Assembly: GCA_027603945.1 (NCBI GenBank)
Contig: JADIIU010000212.1
Location: 1 to 14,016, forward strand
DNA length: 14,016 nt
Source of the DNA: Terramyces sp. JEL0728
Lineage: Eukaryota > Chytridiomycota > Chytridiomycetes > Rhizophydiales > Terramycetaceae
Direction: 5' to 3'
Made by a program: the position numbers and the translations under genes. Below are positions 550 through 13,609 of this stretch, piece by piece. Below the pieces are notes generated by a model. It did not search any database. It saw nothing but the letters and a program-made list of their open reading frames with translations, and was not told the DNA's origin. How positions within the stretch are numbered: position 1 is the first letter of the stretch; every line of letters starts with the position of its first letter.

Positions 550-2177
550 CTATGGGTGAACATTTGTTGCAGGTCTTACGGTGTGCACAGTCTTTAAACT
601 CTTTTCACTAGGAGCAATATGTGAGGAGGAGGTTTCCTTTGTTCCTGTAGACAGATGGGTGCCAGCGCTGCTTGCATGCCTACTCGATTTCAAAATGATT
701 AAATAAATCTGGCCAGTTAAATAAGCATGGACGCTGTAGGTAAAGGTTGATATTGCCCCCATATCCAGCTCTACAAAGTCGCTGTACAACAAGGTAGAGT
801 ATTTCTTGATGTAAAACACAGTTGCGTAAACGGCGAATGATAGAAATTGGCCCAAGATGTAGTACTTTAGGTATGGATCCACTATGTTGAGATTCCTGAC
901 TGATTTGCCGCCGGTTGACAGATACAAGATTTTTACTGCGACTAAAACTGGAACAACCGAATTGAAGGCGTACATGAAGACTGTCCAATAGATAATGTAC
1001 TTGTCCCATTCAAGGATAGGATTGATAAAAGACATTGGGTATCCGCCAATGTCTGCAAAGTAGTTGAAATATGCCCCTCCGAATAGCCCAAAGTGAATTA
1101 AAGCCAAAGCAATTGGATTGATGATTCTCAGCAATTCTTTCTTGTGGTGGAACAGGACTTCAGACACAAGGAACGATGTTAAATGGCAGGAACAAAAGCT
1201 AGCAACCCCCATAGAAATAGAAATCCATTCGGACAACCAGGAAATAATACCGAAATCGGTGACAGTTAATGCCCAGAAAGTGACCGCTAAATTAGAATAT
1301 TCTTACATAATACGAAATTTAAAAGCCAGAATAATGCACTGATGATAGTGATTATTTGAGAAAACAGAATCTTTCTGGCGCTTTTAGCTTTTGCGATTGA
1401 GTTGTAGAGTACATACAATCCAATCGCCAAACTGAGTATGTATGCCACTAGCGAGACGTAATCCATTGGGATATCGAATTTCGGTACCAAAGATTCAACA
1501 GGAATTGCCAACAGCCAGCTGAAGAATACCGTAGCATCTTGCACTTTGTAAAACTGAACAGAGACATTTCCCAAATTTGCTGATATCAACGGGAGGAGGT
1601 CTGGGGTAAGAGAAACTGTTTCTACGGATCCACTGCAGCCGGTGCCGCTAAAGTACTGAAAAGTGCCATTGGTAAAGCACTTGTAGGAATCGTCGTAGCA
1701 AACGTTGTTGTTTGGACGGAAATATGCGGCCAGATACCCATTTAGATTTGTGGTCGTGTTGAAATCATTGGAAACCAAATAGCAGTAGGACGTTCCATCA
1801 GCGACTTTCGGGATAGCATCCAAACCATAATCGCCATCATAGAAGAGAACGTAGCCGGACCAGTACGGCTTTGAAGACGGGTAATTCGTGGTCACAATAC
1901 ACGACTCACCTGGAATGGACACATATACCAGTCCGGTATCATACACAGATACTTCATCAGAGTGGAATTTGAAATAAGGAGGCCAGGTTTCATTCAGATC
2001 GGGAGACCAAGAAATGTAGTTGTACGTGTTGACTGTTTCAAAGACATAGAGCGTATCTGGCGGCCCAACGCAGTCTTTTGCAAAGTAAGCTCCTTCGATT
2101 AGTTGGTCAGCTTTTGCCAAAGTGATTAACAAGAGAATCATTCTGGATCGTTTTGTAAAAATATAAAACGTCATCAT
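550..2177 (-). CDS. Receptor-like membrane protein with Cys-rich ectodomain and seven membrane spans, copy 2 (one 20-nt intron)
   Basis: Exon 1 is 2177-1307 and exon 2 is 1286-550. The intron 1287-1306 (GTAAGAATATTCTAATTTAG) has a CTAAT branch-like motif. Unspliced, the frame hits TAG. Spliced, FVLSVTFW aligns without a gap to YVGSVVFW of intron-free copy 3. The product is 535 aa, or 523 if it starts at the Met at 2141, which heads the signal peptide MILLLITLAKA. The ectodomain has the six cysteines of the family and several N-glycosylation sequons. It is followed by seven hydrophobic segments and a Ser/Thr-rich tail ending in TAG. This is most likely a plasma-membrane receptor-like protein. 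No family name is recognised and the ligand is unknown. It is the middle member of a head-to-tail array. Confidence 0.85.
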
Positions 2178-2368
2178 GTAAAATGAATGTCTGTCACATA
2201 ATGTCGGTTCGACAAAACAGAGCGCGAAAAATCAAGGTAATTTAATCAAAGCAGTAAGGTTTCACGAGAGACCAAGCGGGTTTGTATGGAACACTATCAA
2301 AGATTGCTTGCTGGGAAAATCGGTTATAAATATTTATTTCAGAATTGCTATGGATTCACGTTTCTTTG
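2178..2368. other. Spacer between copies 2 and 3 of the receptor-like array
   Basis: This 191-bp non-coding spacer contains the presumed promoter of copy 2. No repeat, RNA gene or clear regulatory motif was seen. Confidence 0.5.
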
Positions 2369-3895
2369 TTACGTTGCAATGTTGTGACTGTCTGTTTGTT
2401 GAGTGGATCCAATTGCAATTGAGGATTTGTTGCGCAAGTATTTGGCCGAGTTTGAGATAATTTCGTAAATCCTGGTTGTTAGCAAAGAGTGGACAGCCCA
2501 AGTGAAAATCGAGTAAGGTGTCGTGTTGTTGTACATGAAATCACTGCCCAATAAATAAGTGTCTGTCTTGACAAAAAACATTATTCCGTTGAAAGCAAAC
2601 GTGAGAAACTGTCCTAGAATGTAGTATTTGAGATACGGGTCAATAATCATGATTTCTTTGTGGGCAGTCTTTTCTGTTTGAAGACTAATCAGTTTCCATG
2701 CAACTAGGATTGGAACCACGCTGTTGAACGTAAACACAAAGAACGTCCAGTAAACCAAAAACTTGTACCACTTGAGAACAAATCGTACAGTATCCATGGA
2801 ATATGTTGGCGGCCCCACATTAGCAATGTAGATTCCTCCATAGCTTGATCCATAGAAGCCAATGTGGATCCCAATCAGCAACACAATGTTTATGATTCGA
2901 ACTACATATCGATGGTCGTGGAATAGAATTTCAGAAACGAGATACGAGGTGACCAATGACATCAAAAAAGTTGCCACGCCAAATGCAACACTATTCGCTT
3001 GTGAGACGGCACCAATTACTGATTGATTGTTGGCAACTAGACACCAAAAGACAACTGATCCAACGTAGAATATCATGTACAATACTTGGGCAATAATATT
3101 GCAGATTTGCGTAAAGAGGATTTTTCGTGCCTGTTTAACTGTGCGGTAAGTGTGGCAGCACATGTAGATTCCAATTAGCAGTGTAATGATGGCGAAAAAC
3201 AGCGCAAACCAGTCGCCGGTATTATCAAATGACGGCACAATATCCTCTTCAGGAATGGCGGTTATCCAGCTAAAGAATAATTCGGCTCCGCTAACACTGT
3301 ATAGCTGAATACTTATATTCCCCAAAGTTGTAGAATTGTATGATGCCAAATCAAGTGGTAAAGTAATATTTTCTTTCAAATTAGTACATCCAGCGTCTGC
3401 ATAATATGAAAATACTCCTTCCGAATTACACTTGTAGTGATTGTCGTAACATATATTGTTGTTTGGTCGGTAGTAGCTTGCTTTATATCCTTGAAGGATT
3501 TTTGAATCATTAAAATTGTTTGAAATCAAGTAACAATACTGAAATCCGTTTGCTGCGACTGGAAGCGTATCCAGCCCGTATCCGGATGTATAGAATATAG
3601 AATATCCACTCCAGTACGGTTTAGAATCTGCGAAATTGATTGATTCGATGCAATTTGTTCCTGGAATCGACACATACACGTTTCCGTAATCTCCAATGGA
3701 CACTTGGTATGAATGGAAATTAAAGTATGGTGCCCAAGTTTCATTAAGTGCGGACGACCAGTGTATATAAGAATAAGCGTTCTGCGTTTCGAATACGTAA
3801 ATGCTGTCTGGAGGTCCTAGACAATCTTTTCCAAAGTACTGGCCCTCCATGATCAAATCTGCCTTGATTAACGCTATAAACAACGAAATTGACAT
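2369..3895 (-). CDS. Receptor-like membrane protein with Cys-rich ectodomain and seven membrane spans, copy 3 (intron-free)
   Basis: This is one uninterrupted frame of 508 aa from the Met at 3895. The frame is open 41 residues further up, to an ATG at 4018. The 3895 start is preferred because it opens directly with a signal peptide (MSISLFIALIKA), as in copy 1. Numbering from the 4018 Met, the ectodomain spans about 53-268 with cysteines at 66, 123, 162, 190, 197 and 211. Hydrophobic spans lie near 270-288, 300-328, 341-364, 371-392, 418-445, 464-484 and 502-521, followed by a short polar tail. The topology (signal peptide, extracellular Cys domain, seven helices) is that of a receptor. No G-protein-coupled-receptor signature is recognised, so signalling is inferred only from architecture. 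The 20-nt intron of copy 2 is absent here. Confidence 0.85.
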   Translation of the reverse strand: MSISLFIALIKADLIMEGQYFGKDCLGPPDSIYVFETQNAYSYIHWSSALNETWAPYFNFHSYQVSIGDYGNVYVSIPGTNCIESINFADSKPYWSGYSIFYTSGYGLDTLPVAANGFQYCYLISNNFNDSKILQGYKASYYRPNNNICYDNHYKCNSEGVFSYYADAGCTNLKENITLPLDLASYNSTTLGNISIQLYSVSGAELFFSWITAIPEEDIVPSFDNTGDWFALFFAIITLLIGIYMCCHTYRTVKQARKILFTQICNIIAQVLYMIFYVGSVVFWCLVANNQSVIGAVSQANSVAFGVATFLMSLVTSYLVSEILFHDHRYVVRIINIVLLIGIHIGFYGSSYGGIYIANVGPPTYSMDTVRFVLKWYKFLVYWTFFVFTFNSVVPILVAWKLISLQTEKTAHKEIMIIDPYLKYYILGQFLTFAFNGIMFFVKTDTYLLGSDFMYNNTTPYSIFTWAVHSLLTTRIYEIISNSAKYLRNKSSIAIGSTQQTDSHNIAT

Positions 3896-4515
3896 TGAGT
3901 CAGAGTTTCTACCCACGTCATCGACTAGTAGGTCCTTTGTCGGAGAATTTTTTCGTACAAGTGATCTAGAGACACTGATATTATCTGCTGCCGTATTCAT
4001 AAGTGCGTGTATTAACATTGACTTTGCATAGAAAGCGCGTTAGAGTCTTTGAATAGATACTAGTGAATCTGAGAATGCAACAAAATATGGTTAGTATTGC
4101 TAATCATTTCCTAAAGGTACAATATAAAAAATGACTGCATTCATAGCAAATATAAGAATTTGGACGATAACAACTAGCTTGTAACCTTGAAGAATACTAG
4201 AGCCGTTGAAATCGTTTGACACAAATAGCAGCGCTGATACCACTGTGGAATAGTATCGAGAGATGCGTAGAATAACGAATACCGCTCCAGTAAGTGTCGA
4301 GGAAGAAACCTGACAGATTCAATACAATTTGCAATTTAAATGAAAAGATGGACCAATCTTGTTTGTCGGAACGCGTTTTTTAATTTACCGATAACCTAGC
4401 AGAATTATCGCCAACAGTCTGGTAATTGAAATGCAAGGGAACTTTAGTATTGGATAGAGAAACCTAATACCCGAGATAATCATTAACCAAGCTTCAAATT
4501 GACCCGCGATATTTA
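3896..4515. other. Spacer between copy 3 and MND1, containing a decayed receptor copy
   Basis: This stretch holds the 5' flank of copy 3, including a possible in-frame N-terminal extension to 4018, then the receptor relic at 4170-4335, then about 180 bp of AT-rich DNA with no feature up to the MND1 stop codon. Confidence 0.5.
4170..4335 (-). pseudogene. Decayed fragment of a fourth receptor-like ectodomain
   Basis: On the minus strand this stretch matches the ectodomain of copy 3 (plus coordinates about 3475-3660), in the same order and spacing. It reads NCIESVRF, then YWSG, then short pieces of the YC-L and NDFN region followed by LQGYK-like sequence, but each piece is in a different frame. 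Several small indels and the loss of both ends make it non-functional. It sits upstream of copy 3 in the same orientation, consistent with the remains of an older tandem duplicate. Confidence 0.7.
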
Positions 4516-5205
4516 TTAAACATAGTCAAGATCATCTGGGATCCCAAAATTCTTGTTGATTTCCTTCATGTCCATATTAAACTTTTTCACATAGGTCTGC
4601 AAATTGAAAATATTGTCTGTTTAGTAAAACATACCTGTCCATCGGTTCGCTGCTTTCTTTACAACTTTAGAATTCTTTTGCAACATGGCAAGTTTCATTT
4701 TTGCCTTTAAATCTTTTAATTCCATCTGTTTTTCCTGTTTTTGTTGAGAAACCGACTCCAACTTTTCGGTAATTTCAGGTGGTAATTGCGTTGAATATTG
4801 TTTGATCTTTTCTTCTAAATTTTGGGATTCCTGAGTGAGTGATTCAATTGACGATTGGAGCTCTTGATTTTTGCGCTTTTTCTGCTTGATATCTGCTCCT
4901 TTAACACTTTGTTAACTGTTTCGTACCTGTTGTTAGTACTCATCCAACCTCCAGTAGTAATTGGAAGTCCCAATCTTTTCGGTAAATGCAATTCCATCTG
5001 GATCCTTAGATATGTAATACCTCCAACCATGCTTTCCACTACATCTTTTACGGTTTTTTCCACAATTCCTTTTAGCTTTGGAGCAGTTTTTTCAAGCTCC
5101 TTCATTGTGTAGAAATCATTCGTCTCGTGAAACAATTCCAACATTCGTTTTCTCTTTTCCTCGATCGTAAGTGATTTTTTTGTCCTGAATTAACAGAGAT
5201 TACAT
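4516..5205 (-). CDS. MND1: Meiotic nuclear division protein 1 homologue, five tiny introns
   Basis: The family partners HOP2 in the nucleus and helps Dmc1/Rad51 capture and pair homologous DNA in meiosis. The spliced protein (about 193-198 aa; human about 205) shows the diagnostic landmarks in order: EEKRKRMLELFHETNDFYT, KELEKTAPKLKGIVEKTVKDV (split winged-helix), EKIGTSNYYW, a long Lys/Glu/Gln coiled coil, KKAANRWTDNIF, and the C-terminal FGIPDDLDYV. Introns: 5185-5203 (19 nt, splits the start codon AT|G), 4998-5020 (23), 4927-4948 (22, with TACTAAC), 4882- or 4885-4907 (26 or 23) and 4617-4634 (18). The 4885/4882 boundary is uncertain: both choices keep frame, and a single 33-nt intron covering this part is a weaker alternative. 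A TAA lies in frame just before the ATG, so no longer N-terminus is possible. Confidence 0.93.
5185..5203 (-). other. MND1: 19-nt intron interrupting the MND1 start codon
   Basis: The sequence GTAATCTCTGTTAATTCAG follows AT and precedes GACAAAAAAA, so splicing builds ATG ACA AAA AAA TCA. In unspliced RNA the same position reads ATG TAA, an immediate start-stop. It has the TTAAT and CAG elements seen in the other introns. Confidence 0.8.
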
Positions 5206-5339
5206 TTTTTAGTGCAACTTTTTCATCCAGCTCAATTCGGACATTAACCAGTAAAGTGCCAATGTGTGAGTAATAATGCAGTGTCAGCCATTGTAGTCGC
5301 ATTATTGTAATGTAGTAACACGTCACTTTTTCTTTTAAA
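5206..5339. promoter_or_regulatory. Shared divergent promoter of MND1 and the plus-strand seven-span gene
   Basis: Only 134 bp separates the two divergent start codons, so the control elements of both genes must overlap here. An 8-bp inverted repeat, AATAATGC (5272-5279) and GCATTATT (5299-5306), with a 19-bp spacer, lies near the middle. It could be an operator for a dimeric regulator. No TATA box or known meiotic element was identified with confidence. Confidence 0.5.
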
Positions 5340-6304
5340 ATGGGACCTTTCACAGTAGGATACACTCTCTCCACAGCGCCTTTTCAGGTCATTGATTATT
5401 CCAGTCCACTAGCAGTGATTTCAATTATCGTTGCGTTGATTTATCTCTTTTCCTTTGTCGGAATGCTGGTGTTTATTGCACGAGGATGGGTGGTAATTAC
5501 TATTGATTGTAGGGGGTCAGAGCAAAAGTTCTTTATTTTATATGGATTGTGAACAGCATGGGCTTGATCTGGTGTGTTTTGAACATCATCACGCATGTCC
5601 CAATAGTGACTCCGTTTACTTCATGGCTGTACAATGTCTTTGGAGTGTTGAACATTTATGTGACGGTTATTGGGCAATTGGATATTCTAAAAGCATTTTC
5701 CACTGGTACGATAATGACGAGGGAAAGAATCACTTTTTTTCAGTATGGATATACTGTGTACAATTTTATTACCATGTTTGGGCTGTACATGACTGTTGGG
5801 TTTCTGGGAGACGGGAGACCAACCTTTGTAGATAGCGTAAATTATACTAAAGCAGTGGAGTACATATGGATACATTGTGTTTGCCATCGGGTCGCTTGCA
5901 TACGAAACATTCCATGCTGTTTTTGTAGCGAGAGCCGTGGTGAGGCAAATTGAAAAGAGGAGGGAAATTATAACTTCAAAATCTACTTCTGACTATTCAG
6001 CGTTTTATACGCTATTCCGATTGGTGATTACAGGTGTGATAATTGATTGGAGCGCAGCAATTATATGGTTGTTAAGCTGGTTTACAGGAGGCAGCACCGG
6101 GGTTTGTCTTGCGTAAGAATGAACTAATGCAGGGTTATTGGCGCTAGTATAGGCACTGGCCATATACTGTTCATGACTGTAATGTTCAAGATGATCAGAG
6201 TCGTGAATTTGAGGAGCAGCGGATCTTCGTCTTCACACGTAAATAATTCTACAGTGCATGCGGGGCCATCAGTCGCTACACCGATTGCACCTACCCCTAA
6301 ATAA
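5340..6304 (+). CDS. Seven-membrane-span protein, three tiny introns
   Basis: Exons are 5340-5492, 5513-5836, 5856-6112 and 6133-6304. Introns are 5493-5512 (20 nt; 23 nt from 5490 is also possible), 5837-5855 (19, ACTAA) and 6113-6132 (20, ACTAAT). The spliced frame is exactly 301 codons plus TAA. Hydrophobic spans lie near 23-47, 57-80, 90-112, 127-149, 161-187, 208-234 and 240-266. A Ser/Thr/Pro-rich tail of about 35 residues follows. There is no signal peptide and only a short N-terminus. The pattern of helices, including the Arg-Ala/Lys start of helix 2 (RAKVLYFIW here, ARKILFTQI in copy 3), suggests a distant relative of the array at 1-4018 without its ectodomain. That relationship is inferred. 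Likely a membrane receptor or sensor; function unknown. Unspliced, the gene breaks into three overlapping frames. Confidence 0.85.
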
Positions 6305-6398
6305 ATGTTTAAATTGACGGTATCTACCTCGAATTTATCCACTGAAACTATAGGCAGAACGCTGTATGTTGACAGTTTCGCGCAATCACTAAAATAGA
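6305..6398. other. Convergent 3' spacer
   Basis: This 94-bp stretch lies between the stop codons of two convergent genes and must hold both polyadenylation regions. AATAAA-like sequence overlaps the stop of the plus-strand gene. Nothing else is visible. Confidence 0.4.
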
Positions 6399-8532
6399 TT
6401 AAACCCCAAGTTTATTGAAACTGACGACATTCTTTTTGGTTCCAATTATAATATTTGGCCCATCTTCGTTTTCCAGTGAGGATCGGTCGACTCCAAATCG
6501 TGCGACTCTCTGCCGAAGTCTGAGCAATACTTCGTCGTCGGTAGTCATGTAATCGTAGCGCTTGATGTAGTTTTCTTCAAACAATTCTTCAGACTTGCTC
6601 GAATCATGTGCAAATCTAAACCGGTTGCTAATAGATCTATACGCATAATTTAAACTCGAGTCCAGTCCATACATTAAATATATCCACCACGCATGCATCA
6701 ACATTGTCACACCCAAGATTACAACCAGTACTTGAATAGTCAGTAAGATACTTTCGCTAGCCGACAAGTATCCTGACCCATTCAGCGCGTAGTAATCGCA
6801 CACATCAATCCCGGAAGCATTGTATTGCATCAACAGCATGTGCGCGGTAGCAGCCAAAGCACCAAGAACACCCTGGGACATTAGAGAATCATGGTAATAA
6901 CGATCAGGCAGCTTTGTTAATCCCCAATTACCGTTGCCCATTGGAACATGTTGCTAAATACATCATTTTTCGCAGCGGTAAATGTTGCATTATCAAACAA
7001 TGAGCGCAAAAGGTTGAGGTAGTTACCGGTTAGGTTATATCTGTCACCTAGATTAGCAGAAGTTACTGCTCCGGTGCTGGTCAAAATCAGCATAGTACAT
7101 GGGTTGATTTCCGTCAGCAGTAATAGTATTGCTTCCAACACTAATCGATACCACTTTTTTGAAAGCTACCATTTGCCATTCATCAGATGCAAACCCGTTT
7201 TCTACAATTCCATCAAAGAATTTTGCAATAATTGTACAGTCCTGCTTGTACCCAGTGGTGCTCTGCAATTGTTGGTAGTCTTGTATAATTGAATTCGGCG
7301 GTGTATAAACTGTAATTACGCCTCGCAAATCGTTTCCAATTACGCGCAGTCCGTCTGTCCAAGTTCTGGTATTCGCATACAGCACATCTGATGCGTATAC
7401 ATCTGTGCAATCACTTTGCATAAGATACACAAACCCGGGATGTCTTATAGAGAACGAGACGGAAGGGTTTGTCAATGGCCAAGCTGCCCAGCCCCCCAAA
7501 ATGCCATCTTGTAATGGAATTGCATAGGACGTAATAGGCGAAGGATTTACATCGCCTTGGAGAAAAGCAGCAAGTGGCACTTTAATGTCGATCGATTCGT
7601 ATCTTGCCGGGATACACGAATCACTTGAATATTTAGTGATGATTGGAGTCCAGGAAAAGCCAAATGCAGCATACGATACCAGTACAGCTATTAAAAGTGA
7701 AAGGAACCACATTGTGTTTCTTATTTGATATCCCGGGAGTGAGGATTTGGAGAGTGATGCATGTAAATTGTCCAGAGTGCATCCGCGCGAAACCAATTTG
7801 CTAGCTAGTATCCAACTGTGCATGTAGTGTAAAAGCTTGTCTGTAGAATAAAACACCAAATGTCCTGACAAGGTAAATGAAATGTGATAGGCTAGTTAGC
7901 TGATCATTACCATTGTAGTCTGAAAACTGTGGAATCGCTGTATTTTGCACCAGCACCAGCGATACAGAAATAAACAGCAAGAGTACAACGAATAACAAAA
8001 AGAACATTGAAATCTTCCACGGTATTGAACGAAATACATATCGTAACTTTCTTACAAAAGGCGATTCCTTGACCTTTATGTAATAGTTTTCCAGCCGATG
8101 AAAAATATTCTCATTCAAGTGCGAGAGAGAAGACATATTGTCTACTGAACGTCTTGCAGCCAGTGATTCTGAAGAGGCGACTTCAAAAATCGTAGGCTGT
8201 TTTACTGGTGTGGTTTCTTTTTTTAATGGACCTGTTATTGACCGTCTCTGTGTAGTCTACAGTTATATCCAAATACTGGAACACTAGGCCGCATTGGCTC
8301 TCCTGAATCTGACGACGAATCATCCAGCGAAACTTCAATGGAATCTCCACCAGTGAGCGGCCGCCTTTTAACGGAATTTGAATGGCTTAATATTGATTTG
8401 ATTGTCGGGTGCTGTTAGTGAGTAATTGTTTACTTTAACAATTTTCGTGGGTATTTCATTTGTGCTATCGAAAGCTTCAGAGTATATTTCCTGTGATATT
8501 GCTGGCATTGGGGCGTTCATTTGATTTTCCAT
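6399..8532 (-). CDS. Unrecognised three-membrane-span protein with large ectodomain, five tiny introns
   Basis: Exons are 8532-8434, 8411-8277, 8256-7911, 7891-7067, 7047-6932 and 6911-6399. Introns are 8412-8433 (22 nt), 8257-8276 (20), 7892-7910 (19), 7048-7066 (19) and 6912-6931 (20). Spliced, it is exactly 677 codons plus TAA. Residues 1-155 are polar, Ser/Pro-rich and probably disordered. Spans lie near 160-182, 254-273 and 562-587. Residues about 275-560 form a large loop with four cysteines and several N-glycosylation sequons (such as NLTG, NATF, NASG, NGSG), so it is probably extracellular. The last 90 residues are charged and cytoplasmic. The start is fixed by an in-frame TAG directly upstream. 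No family is recognised. A surface protein with a cytoplasmic N-terminal tail is the simplest reading. Confidence 0.82.
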
Positions 8533-8538
8533 CTACAT
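8533..8538 (-). promoter_or_regulatory. Start-stop micro-uORF abutting the start codon of the 677-aa protein gene
   Basis: On the minus strand the sequence is ATGTAGATG. A one-codon upstream ORF (ATG TAG) ends immediately before the main ATG at 8532. If transcribed, it could slow ribosomes or lower initiation. Its function is not shown by the sequence. Confidence 0.35.
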
Positions 8539-8959
8539 TAAAAGGTAGTAACTGAGTGTAATTTATTTGGTGCTTGCGTATTATTAGACTTTTCGTTCTT
8601 TCGCGACTGCCCGTCCTTGAATGAAACAACACTGCTGCGTCTCAATTCCTTGATTATTATTAATCTACTGGTGGTACTTGAGCTGGTGAGAGGTTTTTAA
8701 GGGCATCCTCTTCCATCTCGACGCGAAACTAAATAAAAAAGTATCGACTGCTGCAAGTATTTCTTTGAATGGGTTTATCCAAGTTTCTACTCTTCAATAA
8801 TAAAATCTATTGCAAAGCACTTTGTCAGTGCTGTAATAATCAGAAACAGCCAGCGATAGAAATGCGGTTATTTTATATCGGTTATTTAAGGCGACTCAAT
8901 CTGTATTACCATTTCCATTCGTCGAGTGAATATACAAAGCACTTTATTTAAACTTTTTA

Positions 8960-9457
8960 CATTCCCCAGACTTGCTTGATTACAGCAGCAAAAGTCACAA
9001 TGTCCATTCTGACTCCTCCAACAGAGAAGGAAGGATTTCTTTGAACAGCGTTTGACTGCATAACTGGTAGTGCACAACCCATCTTTAATTCTGCTTCAGT
9101 TATCGTTTAATTTATAGCACCTCTGAAACAGCTGTTTGAGCTTTAACAATGGATGAAGCGTGTTTCAGCCAAGAAGGTTCACTTGGTTTCAAATGCAAAT
9201 CCACACGTTAGTGATTCGGATCTAGTAGGCTATAATTTTGGATCAGCAATCTGACTATCGAATCACCAGTGAGATGTTTGGCAAAGTATAGAAATTGACA
9301 CAGTAACTCAAGATGGTGATCTAACAGCGAATGGGAATGCATTTCAGAACTTGTCGATGTGTTGTCTCCCTTGAAACGTTACACTCTGGAGGTTTCTGTA
9401 GTGGCAAAGAATATCTGCAGCGCTGTTTGTTACAGTATGTGCCTTACTCATATTTGA
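8960..9457 (+). CDS. Possible small gene with many tiny introns (tentative)
   Basis: Short open segments on the plus strand can be joined in one frame by removing GT-AG intervals at 9002-9024, 9050-9070, 9099-9117, 9134-9158, 9225-9246, 9269-9291 and 9303-9327 (19-25 nt). The joined product includes KDFFEQLHNPSLILLH, SAKKVHLVSNANPHVSDSDL and SELVDVLSPLKRYTLEVSVV, and stops at TGA 9455-9457. The 5' start is unresolved. One option links to an ATG at 8862 or 8769 through a longer intron. Several of these introns lack the CTAA motif of the secure introns, and freedom in choosing junctions makes a chance assembly possible. No family is recognised. A decayed gene is the main alternative. Confidence 0.3.
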
Positions 9458-9627
9458 GATCAATCAAATAAATGTCTAATAAAAACACCCAGGATACTTT
9501 CATTGGGGTAGCCAAATTACCCCAGAGTGCCCATTTCAACAGTTGGGATATTCGATCCTTGTGAAATATCATGTAAAATGAATTGGAGTTGTGATTGCCA
9601 CAACATTTTTCCTTGTCGATTTTGTAG

Positions 9628-11136
9628 ATGGAAATTAAACAGCGACCAGGAGTGCAAGTGGTTGAATATCAACTGCCAATGTCTTACAAATTTCTTGAAT
9701 CCGCCTTCTATGTCAGAGACTGCTATCCTGAATACTACGAATACATTACAACTACATTGGCAAACCCAAGAGTGGATTATATATCATTGACTGGAACTCC
9801 AGGTATCGGAAAATCGATTTTATACCTCTATTTCTTCCAGCGGTTCAGAAAAGAGAATCCTGAAGCAACCATCATCACTGCCTCCTTTGGAAAGAACAGG
9901 ACTCTCAAAAAGTGTCTTGTATTTGAGCCAAACTCAAAGAATGGGGTAAAAAACAAGGAAATTCCGGATATCCCTGAATCTCTTCATTTATATGATGGAC
10001 CACCTGTTATCGAGCCATCAGACAACAAAATGGTTTGCTTCACCAGTCCAAACTTTACTTGGCTCGATGGAATGGCAAAAGCACAAAACCACATTGAACT
10101 TTATTTGCCGTTTTGGAGCTTGGAAGAACTGTGGGATGCAAATGATTTGCTGGGACTTGGATTGGACAATGATGCAGTTGAAAAGCGATTTTTAACCTTT
10201 GGTGGTTCTGCTCGCTACTGTCTTTCTCAAAATCAGAGGTTTTACAACGGGGGAGTGGAAGAGCTGGAGCAAAAAGTGCATTCAATTCAATCCTTTATGG
10301 CAATTAAAGAGTGTTTGGAAATGAAGACCGACAAAGCAGATATCTGTCATCGAATATTTCACTACGTGCCTGTTTTCTTTAAAGAATCTCCCTGTTTCTA
10401 CAATTTGGTTTTTTGCTCAAATGCAATTGCCAGAATGGTGGATGAATGCATAATTGATAAAAGTGACTCCAAGCGTAATGAACTTGTGCAGTGGCTCAAA
10501 GGAAGTTCGAAATGCACCACCCTCATTGGCTGGCTGTTTGAAGGTTACTCCAACAAAGTATTGTCGGCTGGTGGAGATTTTACAATCAATCCCCTATTAA
10601 CGTCTCTAATTCAGTTCAACCTTCATCTGGATGCTGGTGATTATCGGCCTGCAAAAACTGATAATTGCGAATCTTTGGATGGATATTACCTTGATGGTAG
10701 TCAAAAGATACTGTATCTGTTCCAAATGACGCGAAATTACATTCATCCAGTCAAGGCAAATGGTATTATCAAGCTCTTTGAATCGATGAACCTCAACAAG
10801 AAACCACAGGAAATTGAGGTGCGTTTGATTTTTGTTGTTCCAAGGAGTATGGGGGATTACAAAAAGCAAATGATCAATATGGATGATGTTTCAAAAGGGA
10901 TTTTGTCTGATGTCGCAAAAGTCAGGGGAATCGGGCCCAAATCACTTTCGATACTCGCTGGCAAAGGTATCACAACAGTTCAACAATTGGAAATCGGACT
11001 CAAAAAAGACAACTCTCTCAAGAGATTTGAAAACAACTATAACTTGTTTATGAAAGATTTCAACTCGGCTTCCGATTGGAAATTTCTTGCTGATATCCCG
11101 CAATATGTTCTTGAACTTGCTGGTGATTTCAAGTAA
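9628..11136 (+). CDS. CRN/RHS-type P-loop NTPase with nuclease-like region and C-terminal helix-hairpin-helix
   Basis: This is a single 502-aa frame without introns. Walker A is GTPGIGKS (56-63). A Walker B-like LHLYDG (119-124) is followed by a CFTSPNF strand (137-143), then the family hallmark PFWSLEEL (161-168) and FGGSARYCL (191-199), the lid region. After about 140 residues comes the PD-(D/E)XK-like core typical of Crinkler/RHS proteins: DGYYLDGSQKILYLFQMT (351-368), with Gln in the acidic position and Thr replacing the usual Lys. Residues about 425-455 contain VRGIGPKSL and GITTVQQL, a helix-hairpin-helix DNA-binding signature. CRN/RHS proteins act mostly in nuclei as effectors or in conflict and retroelement control. 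DNA targeting is inferred from the HhH. No secretion signal or LFLAK header is present. It is followed 179 bp later by a second family member in the same orientation. Confidence 0.85.
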   Translation: MEIKQRPGVQVVEYQLPMSYKFLESAFYVRDCYPEYYEYITTTLANPRVDYISLTGTPGIGKSILYLYFFQRFRKENPEATIITASFGKNRTLKKCLVFEPNSKNGVKNKEIPDIPESLHLYDGPPVIEPSDNKMVCFTSPNFTWLDGMAKAQNHIELYLPFWSLEELWDANDLLGLGLDNDAVEKRFLTFGGSARYCLSQNQRFYNGGVEELEQKVHSIQSFMAIKECLEMKTDKADICHRIFHYVPVFFKESPCFYNLVFCSNAIARMVDECIIDKSDSKRNELVQWLKGSSKCTTLIGWLFEGYSNKVLSAGGDFTINPLLTSLIQFNLHLDAGDYRPAKTDNCESLDGYYLDGSQKILYLFQMTRNYIHPVKANGIIKLFESMNLNKKPQEIEVRLIFVVPRSMGDYKKQMINMDDVSKGILSDVAKVRGIGPKSLSILAGKGITTVQQLEIGLKKDNSLKRFENNYNLFMKDFNSASDWKFLADIPQYVLELAGDFK

Positions 11137-11315
11137 TAATTATGTATTTATAATAAAACGAGCTGGATTGTTTATACATCCACACTTTAGCGTCAAGAAC
11201 CAGAGTTTTTCAACTACTATCATGGAACATTAGTTGAATTTACCATTGATATTAATTGAAATCTTTAAATTTCCTCAGAAAGTTTAAATTTGTTTCATAA
11301 AATTTCCTTTTTTTC
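11137..11315. other. Spacer between the two CRN/RHS-type genes
   Basis: This 179-bp AT-rich spacer has an AATAAAA sequence near 11151, a likely polyadenylation signal for the upstream gene. The rest is presumably the promoter of the downstream gene. Confidence 0.45.
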
Positions 11316-13609
11316 ATGGCCGAAAATCACAAGAAACTTGAAGCAGTAGAACAAGAAATCAAAGACTTGAAACAAAAAAAAATGGTATTAGAACAGAAAA
11401 GAAGAAGGGAAGCACTATCCCCTGGTGAAAATGTGTTATTGAAAAACCTAATAGAAGATATAACAGACTTGAAGAAGGATAAAGATTATTGGAAGCGTAT
11501 TATCGAAAGCAATTCCCAAGGTATACTTATTTCTTATTATTAGCATTATTTGATGAACAGCTCAGAAGGAAGGAAGAGCAGCTCAGAGAATTGCCGATCC
11601 ACAAAGAGAGCGAAATACAAGGTATCGCTTCAAACCTAACAGCAGGAAATGATATGGATGTTGATTCTACTTTTCAAAGACCCCCATTAGTGCGAACAAA
11701 GAGTGACGAAGAGTTTATCAAATCCAACAATTTGGACTTGCGAAAGCCGAGCGACATCCTCAAGTATCTGATATACCTTCTGGAGAAAACTGTGGATGTA
11801 TCAAAGCTACCGAATAGCGCTGCATTCCACGACAATTGTTTGGAATATCGTCTTGATAGGAGGACAACCAATTACATCCCCGATGGTGCTGATAATGTCA
11901 AGTTGCTTCTTGCTGTTTCTGGGGCAGGAAAGACAAGAATGCTTTTAGAATTACTGCACTCAAACTTTGGATATTACTTTACTTCCAAGCTTTCTCAAAG
12001 AGATTTTGGTTCTGATGATTTAGCTCAATGTCAGGCACATTGCGACATGCATAATGAGCCCGAAAACGTTAAACGAGCGATCCAATTGTTGTACTTTGTT
12101 CGTTCTGCTGTTTGCAACTACTTGATGGAAAAAGGATTCGACAAGCCTTGGCAAATTCTTTTGGCTCAGCTGCATCCCATTGCATTCTTTGGAAATGACT
12201 TGTTTGAGCGTCTTTTTACTGCCCTCTTGAAAGAGCAAATATTTGTTGCAACTTCAACTGTACCTACGTTTACATTCGCAGCAATTGATGAAATCCAGAT
12301 CTTTGTAGAAAGTGGCTCTGTACACCACTTGTCAGGCGCTGCGAATATGCGTCCATTTTTCTCTCCCCTGGTACACTATTCCAAGATGATGCAAAATTTC
12401 CCTCAATTCCTACTATCAGGCACTGGTATAAACTTTGAATATGTCAACGGAGCTATGGAGTCCAATACAATGAAGCTACATCAACAGACAAACTATGAAG
12501 TTGTATCAAGTTTTCACGCTCTGTCACGGTCAGATATTGAAATGTATGCTAAGCAATTTCTACAAGAACATCAAGTACTGGAGGTGGATGATGTTGTCTC
12601 TAGAATTTCAGGCTTTGAATTATGCCACGGAAGACCACGTTTTTTAGCCTATATTCTAGATAGATATATGGATTCAAAGGATATTGATGTTGCAATCGGT
12701 GAATTTGTTGCAGGTATATCTACGGTAAACGGACAGATTTTCCCGCTCAGATTCTTGAAAAGAGATCTTGATAAAGACATTAACACACTCCATAGAGTCA
12801 TTGACAATGATACCTTCTCACGGATTATCCGAGATGCTCTACTTGATGCCATTTGGAAAGGAAAAGTGCAGCTTGAATTGACAGACCAGTATAGTGCAGA
12901 AGCTATGCGTTACGGGTTGGGCTTTGGTGAAGTTACTAGTGGATTGCTACATTCTATTGAAGTCCGGGAGTTGGCAGTGGTCGAGTGTCTCCGTTACTTG
13001 ATCCCTTTTGCATATATAGTCAAAAGTTTTGCACAGAGAATTAATTCAAGTCCTAACCCTCAAAGTGTTGGTTATATGGTGGAGTATTTGGTTGCTTTTG
13101 CTTTGGTGTCCAAGCATTCTGGTGTTGATGCAGCCAGTATAATCAAGGCATCCAACGGATTTGTATTCCAATATTTGCGAAGTAACGATTCGAGCCAAGT
13201 ATGTTTTCCCGACCATATGTGTGGGCCTGATATCATTTACAAGTGTATGAAGACAAAAACTGTGTATATTGTTCAAGTGAAATTTGTCAAGGGAATGTCA
13301 AAGCAGGAAGCAGCAAATGCGTGCGATACGACAAATCCGGACCATTTCTATTGCAAGCGAAAGGATAATGAGGTGTTGAAAGGATTTGAGGACAAGCGGA
13401 AAAAGCTGCTTGAAAGTTTAAGGAATCTACAATTGGAAGGATTTTCACTTCAGCAAATGCTGTTTATTCATTCTGGAGGAAAGCAGAGTTCGTTTACGCA
13501 AGGCGCGCTTACAGTTACGAAGGGTAGTGATCCAGAGTTTTTCAACACGATTTGTCCGGGTATTTGGGAGTTTTTGGATAATGTGAGGAGCAATTTTCAA
13601 AAGGGCTAG
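11316..13609 (+). CDS. CRN/RHS-like NTPase-nuclease with N-terminal coiled coil, one 23-nt intron
   Basis: Exons 11316-11520 and 11544-13609 are joined across intron 11521-11543 (starts GTATAC, ends TTAG), giving exactly 756 codons plus TAG. Residues 4-85 are a Lys/Glu/Leu-rich coiled coil that the intron cuts at residue 69. An acidic/Ser linker follows. The NTPase core shows Walker A SGAGKTR (194-200), Walker B FAAIDEIQ (313-320), a sensor-like LSGTG (359-363) and GRPRFL (431-436). The C-terminus has a restriction-endonuclease-like fold signature: E582 (VEYLVAF), PD at 630-631, and VQVK with Gln646 and Lys648 (a Q-x-K variant of D/E-x-K). The K is kept, unlike in the upstream gene, so nuclease activity is more plausible. 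This is probably an effector- or conflict-type protein acting on DNA. The CRN/RHS family assignment is by architecture. It is the last gene before the telomere. Confidence 0.83.

Follow-up and report, generated by a model that had tools for sequence, protein, structure and literature searches.

Short introns in the window

The window analysed here, the whole 14,016-nucleotide (nt) contig JADIIU010000212.1 of the chytrid fungus Terramyces sp. JEL0728 (assembly GCA_027603945.1), carries two receptor-like genes (550–2141 and 2369–3895), an MND1 gene (4516–5205, minus strand), genes at 5340–6304 and 6399–8532, two large telomere-proximal genes and a telomere repeat. Terramyces belongs to the family Terramycetaceae in the order Rhizophydiales of the Chytridiomycota. 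Five of the genes in the window are interrupted by segments of about 20 nt that are very probably spliceosomal introns. The initial annotation listed fourteen of them; checked against the letters of the window, the coordinates are exact and GT...AG ends are present in 14/14, and the lengths are, as given there, 18 (1), 19 (4), 20 (5), 22 (2) and 23 nt (2). It had also placed CTAA or TTAA toward the acceptor in most segments, which is true of 11/14, the others being 5493–5512 (TTGA), 8257–8276 (ATAA) and 11521–11543 (none).

MND1 gives the most detailed case, with 195 codons once its short introns are removed. All of these lie on the minus strand: 4617–4634 (18 nt), whose excision yields NRWTDNIF; 4927–4948 (22 nt); 4998–5020 (23 nt), whose excision yields DGIAFTEKIGTSNYYW, a stretch absent from the deposited protein; and 5185–5203 (19 nt), which splits the inferred start codon as AT^G. 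Exact frames had been claimed for every gene after removal of the listed segments. This holds for 550–2141, 5340–6304 and 6399–8532, which are open to their stops; for MND1 the four listed introns are insufficient, as the frame is broken after 4927–4948 unless an adjoining 20-nt segment missing from the initial list (4907–4926, minus strand) is also removed. A single 33-nt intron (4907–4939) or a single 42-nt intron (4907–4948) would keep the frame as well, and 4907–4948 seems to consist of two back-to-back short introns (22 + 20 nt) in tandem, with no exon between them. Nested twin introns are reported for other fungi (PMC9024468).

Splicing raises the Pfam Mnd1 score from 54.9 bits (one unspliced frame) to 87.3 bits and the LZ3wCH score from 16.6 bits (another unspliced frame) to 68.2 bits, and residues 2–195 of the spliced protein align to the solved Mnd1 4y66. 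Its best match is HDV01_003211 of Terramyces sp. JEL0728 (86% identity over 93% of the query), followed by a protein of Boothiomyces macroporosus (71% identity). An origin from a mikrocytid or another member of the Ascetosporea, which the intron size had suggested, was rejected in view of this match. When the deposited MND1 is compared with the DNA, 4617–4634 and 4907–4926 appear already removed, which means that the deposited annotation includes some of the short introns. In the same model 5185–5203 is not an intron, 4927–4948 is partly translated as coding and 4998–5020 is read through into a shifted frame; it seems that the conserved stretch is missing from the deposited protein because this 23-nt intron was missed. 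The deposited Boothiomyces MND1 lacks DGIAFTEKIGTSNYYW altogether, as if the flanking short introns had been missed there too.

The other introns of the window fall in four genes. In the receptor-like gene 550–2141, a 20-nt intron (1287–1306, minus strand) has its branch A at nt 15. The spliced protein is 47% identical to the paralogue encoded by 2369–3895 and the alignment is ungapped around the join; the intron is thus present in one copy and absent from the other. This agrees, as does the MND1 alignment, with the earlier statement that the introns sit where homologues need them, the joins being gap-free or nearly so. Gene 5340–6304 has three introns on the plus strand, at 5493–5512 (20 nt), 5837–5855 (19 nt) and 6113–6132 (20 nt), and gene 6399–8532 has five on the minus strand, at 6912–6931 (20 nt), 7048–7066 (19 nt), 7892–7910 (19 nt; motif matrix rank 160/502), 8257–8276 (20 nt; branch ATAAC) and 8412–8433 (22 nt; rank 138/502). 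The last segment listed, 11521–11543 (23 nt, plus strand), is a candidate in a telomere-proximal gene for which no homologue was used. A position matrix trained on another contig, C1, separates the 14 introns from 487 other GT...AG segments of 18–23 nt in the window (area under the curve 0.88, P = 6e-7). As 4/14 rank below 130th of 502 on this matrix, the motif alone cannot decide each case.

The receptor-like genes form a tandem array on this telomere-bearing contig. Positions 1–412 match 1720–2131 and represent a partial further copy at the contig start, with 79% DNA identity to the second copy, and broken short matches to the receptor-like protein at 4140–4330 are probably a relic copy. For the two large telomere-proximal genes (9628–11136 and 11316–13609), no Pfam family reaches its curated cut-off; they may resemble Crinkler- or RHS-type proteins. 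TTAGGG repeats do lie at the contig end (13963–14016, plus strand), as first described, and this end was the only match in an exact-run search of the assembly for (TTAGGG)4.

A narrow length class across the genome

The initial annotation had called for a genome-wide survey of intron lengths. We sampled positions 1–200000 of C1 (200 kb, 1.3% of the 15.0-Mb assembly, which has 231 contigs), where a class of 19–22 nt dominates; the class recurs on four other contigs. In a frame-rescue test on the C1 stretch, GT...AG segments were in excess at 19–21 nt and slightly at 22 nt, and none of six control dinucleotide pairs peaked at 19–22 nt. Beyond the window, GT...AG ends were a requirement of the searches. 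A frame test based on the YTAA motif likewise peaked at 19–22 nt, with no excess over the control at 23–120 nt. We also used a gene finder that weighted all lengths from 15 to 300 nt equally, its matrices being trained for two rounds without length information. Before any splice matrix was used, it placed 8, 20, 15 and 6 introns at 19, 20, 21 and 22 nt (out of 88) and no more than 2 at each of the other lengths; after training, the counts were 18, 58, 31 and 14 (121/203), with at most 3 at any other length. This extrapolates, roughly and from 1.3% of the genome, to ~9,000 introns genome-wide. The ultra-short class proposed at the outset as 18–23 nt therefore stands, with main lengths of 19–22 nt and with 18 and 23 nt as its tails.

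A motif search led to the same class. On C1, GTA...YTRAY...AG occurred 162 times at 19–22 nt (35 for the scrambled motif), and 105 of these matches were also frame-rescuing (15 for the scrambled motif), as compared with 81 versus 75 at 14–18 and 23–30 nt (one-sided Fisher P = 9e-10 for 19–22 nt against these lengths). Stretches of C2, C20, C60 and C100 (40 kb, lengths up to 60 nt) gave 32 matches versus 5, and 18 versus 1 when frame rescue was also required. For the whole genome, a stricter GTAAGTAT pattern matched no more than twice (at 21 and 20 nt), as often as its control, and was replaced by a GTAATT-donor motif; this had 180 matches against 69 for the backwards pattern, and among the 100 matches listed, 82 were at 19–22 nt, duplicate copies included. 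Identical motif matches of 19–21 nt recur pairwise on C15, C18, C29 and C36, and contigs C199 and C111 share 3.1 kb at 98.9% identity; either recent duplications or unmerged haplotypes could underlie both observations.

Conserved genes outside the window also need such introns. Spliced RPA1 was aligned to the solved chain 4gnx, an unnamed deposit that ranks just ahead of chains named RPA 70-kDa. In the aligned part, three of the four joins are free of any gap within five residues, whereas the fourth lies ~3 residues from a one-residue gap. For MCC2, 3/3 joins are gap-free against both the solved MCC beta chain 8j4z and a Boothiomyces protein (454/465 residues identical). Without splicing, U2AF2 contains four stops and scores 251.7 bits; removal of four introns of 19–20 nt lifts the score to 324.7 bits, above the curated cut-off of 310.3. 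The two joins that fall within the region aligned to the solved U2AF 65 kDa chain 6tr0 show no gap. The U2AF2 model tried first, which had five introns and a 6-nt microexon, was rejected since its frame ran into a stop. At E 1e-80, a DEAD-box protein had no match in the PDB. With RPA1 at E 1e-150, the candidates that were scored, a part of the total, included 13 matching proteins, none named Terramyces or Boothiomyces, which may reflect mis-annotation and proves nothing alone.

These data bear on the possibility that ordinary fungal introns of at least 40 nt dominate the genome and that the 20-nt ones are a minority selected by the method. The method is indeed blind to stop-free introns whose length is a multiple of three, 80/203 introns of the gene finder exceed 24 nt, and frame-rescuing motifs at 31–300 nt number 254 versus 142 in the control (nine bins summed). 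However, no bin stands out in this sum, and the excess may come from real sites that are paired across exons; raw motif counts over the same range are 1856 versus 1648, again with no prominent 30-nt bin. The longer gene-finder introns never exceed three at any single length and many bridge apparent neighbouring genes; those above 24 nt probably connect separate genes or skip short exons that were overlooked. The YTAA test found nothing beyond its control at the longer lengths, and the introns needed in the aligned parts of MND1, RPA1, MCC2 and U2AF2 are all of 18–23 nt, apart from MND1 4907–4948. We therefore consider a dominant longer class very improbable. A narrow class with no longer one beside it was seen both in the C1 stretch (to 300 nt) and in the four-contig sample (to 60 nt).

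An even less probable reading takes the segments for frameshifts, due to errors in the assembly or to decay of the genes, whose GT...AG ends are coincidental. Some genes of the window are multicopy and the fragment near 4140–4330 looks like a relic, as such decay would have it, but chance would hardly produce, both in the C1 stretch and on four other contigs, a length peak as sharp as that at 19–22 nt, with GT and AG ends and a branch motif whose spacing is fixed, and the conserved RPA1, MCC2 and U2AF2 carry their introns where homologues need them.

Intron anatomy, splicing machinery and mechanism

The anatomy of the class was taken from the 123 short introns (17–24 nt) of C1, with some counts made on the 121 of 19–22 nt. 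The donor begins GTA, with A at +3 in 90%, T at +6 in 62% and G at +5 in 24% of the 123; the commonest donors are GTAATT, GTAAGA and GTAAGT, the last of which occurs in 8/121, and the acceptor is TAG in 96/121. YTAA is present in 80/123, and in 70 of those 80 the branch A, placed by motif only, is at nt 14 or 15. On the broader definition, YTRAY lies 2–4 nt before the AG in 80/121 introns of 19–22 nt and is absent in 41. The peak of 5–6 nt in the distance from branch to intron end was found only in the 19–22 nt class, and the intron interior has 25% G+C (39% for the 200-kb stretch). Among the window introns (the 14 listed plus 4907–4926), 12/15 have the branch A at nt 14 or 15; 4927–4948 has it at nt 16, 8412–8433 at nt 19 and 11521–11543 has none. 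U12-type introns have GTATCCTT or ATATCCTT donors. GTATCC was not among the 15 commonest donors of the 121 introns, which gives no sign of that type in a search that did not extend to AT...AC introns.

The initial annotation had pointed to U2, U6 and the branch-point factors, and our searches covered the U1, U2, U5 and U6 RNAs, U1C, U1-70K and U2AF2. Part of the expected machinery was found: besides U2AF2, there is a U2 small nuclear RNA (snRNA) at 140 bits, which contains GTGTAGTATCTGTT, the branch-pairing stretch of U2, and a U5 snRNA with its usual functional loop CGCCTTTTACTAA, as well as a U1C protein (52 bits). U6 RNA was not found. The segments are short, uniform and frame-breaking within coding sequence, as would be the case for DNA deleted in the manner of ciliate internal eliminated sequences, but ciliate eliminated sequences have TA ends, and the GT...AG ends, a U2-matching branch motif at fixed spacing and the presence of U2, U5, U1C and U2AF2 in the genome make removal from DNA rather than from RNA very unlikely.

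Taken together, the length peak, the fixed-spacing branch motif, the restoration of proteins and a U2 with its branch-pairing stretch support U2-type introns. From these features of the sequence, we consider it highly probable that the segments are U2-type spliceosomal introns of a chytrid fungus, with 19–22 nt as the only length class up to 300 nt in the sampled DNA. The donor, a loose GTA(A)(T)T, would be recognised through base pairing to U1 and U6, and the YTRAY branch site through pairing to U2; the branch A, usually at nt 14 or 15, would leave 5 or 6 nt to the intron end. With this fixed spacing, the spliceosome may recognise each intron in its entirety as a single unit. A polypyrimidine tract would have no room after the branch and would presumably not be needed, and a retained intron would usually cause a frameshift or add a stop. 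We lean somewhat toward a further proposal, in which a spliceosome locked to one range of intron lengths arose independently in this fungus. The machinery would measure the distance from donor to branch, with the A at nt 14 or 15, and so hold thousands of nuclear introns at 19–22 nt; size would then provide much of the recognition signal, the donor would be relaxed, with GTAATT in place of GTAAGT, and a polypyrimidine tract would not fit after the branch.

Several observations weigh against the reading of the segments as U2-type spliceosomal introns. In the frame-rescue test, the control TG...GA rises to 167 at 16 nt, which is unexplained, and the scrambled-branch controls of the YTAA test also rise at 19–21 nt, one of them with 25, 27 and 10 against 39, 61 and 19; such a rise is expected if controls catch real introns through overlap, and it weakens that one test. 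YTAA is lacking in 43/123 short introns, where other forms such as TTGA or TTTA are seen. False motif matches occur, as one 20-nt candidate in U2AF2 turned out to be exon. In the window, the branch motif of 8412–8433 is atypically placed, and 11521–11543, which has no TRA branch motif, is the weakest case of the listed set. With regard to the machinery, the U1C family also matched two bacterial controls, one of them above the cut-off; the search of the assembly for U1 RNA gave no convincing match, those for U6 RNA gave two weak matches only, neither U6-like, and that for U1-70K was empty, although its control was silent too. Finally, the measuring step of the mechanism is deduced solely from spacing.

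Relation to known ultra-short introns

Ciliates, reduced parasites and relic nuclei are where ultra-short introns have been known until now, and a chytrid host makes the finding more surprising; the kind is already known, and an independent fungal case appears to be new. No report of such introns in a chytrid or other fungus was found in the literature searched, which mostly does not cover subscription journals and leaves priority unproven. Microsporidia, which are relatives of fungi, also have short introns, with a lower bound of ~23 nt, and to our knowledge the introns described here would be the shortest in fungi and animals together. A fungus with U2, U5, U1C and U2AF2 offers a relative of well-studied yeasts in which to ask how small a removable intron can be and what sets that limit. 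In practical terms, MND1 serves as a warning that parts of the gene models deposited for this family can be in error.

Chytrids have been described as intron-rich, and the density table of one survey holds two Chytridiomycota, with no 20-nt class mentioned in the available portion of that paper (PMC8476143). The same paper gives a mean of 63 bp for the introns of Cryptococcus neoformans, also nuclear and fungal, which are thus ~3 times longer. Paramecium introns, at ~25 bp, are likewise exclusively ultra-short but longer than those of Terramyces, and belong to a ciliate (PMC5014332). The introns of chlorarachniophyte nucleomorphs (18–21 bp) are similar in their nearly equal lengths, and size itself has been proposed as a recognition cue there (PMC10245619, PMC5014332); a nucleomorph is the relic nucleus of an endosymbiont, whereas the present genome is that of a fungus. 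Mikrocytos mackini has introns of 16–17 nt, also very short, narrow in range and with conserved motifs, but this mikrocytid is a parasite with 224 introns and a small spliceosome (PMC10245619), compared with the ~9,000 extrapolated here and the U2AF2 and U1C found. A further parallel is the heterotrich ciliate Stentor coeruleus, whose introns of 15–16 nt are described as very narrow in length, GU-AG, A+U-rich and with a fixed branch A, as in Terramyces (PMC9505925). In both organisms a comparable distance follows the branch A (5 nt in Stentor), and U2AF2 is listed as present in the ciliate too; in Stentor, however, the branch A falls on nt 10 of the 15 (PMC9505925), whereas here it is usually nt 14 or 15 of 19–22, and in a fungus rather than a ciliate.

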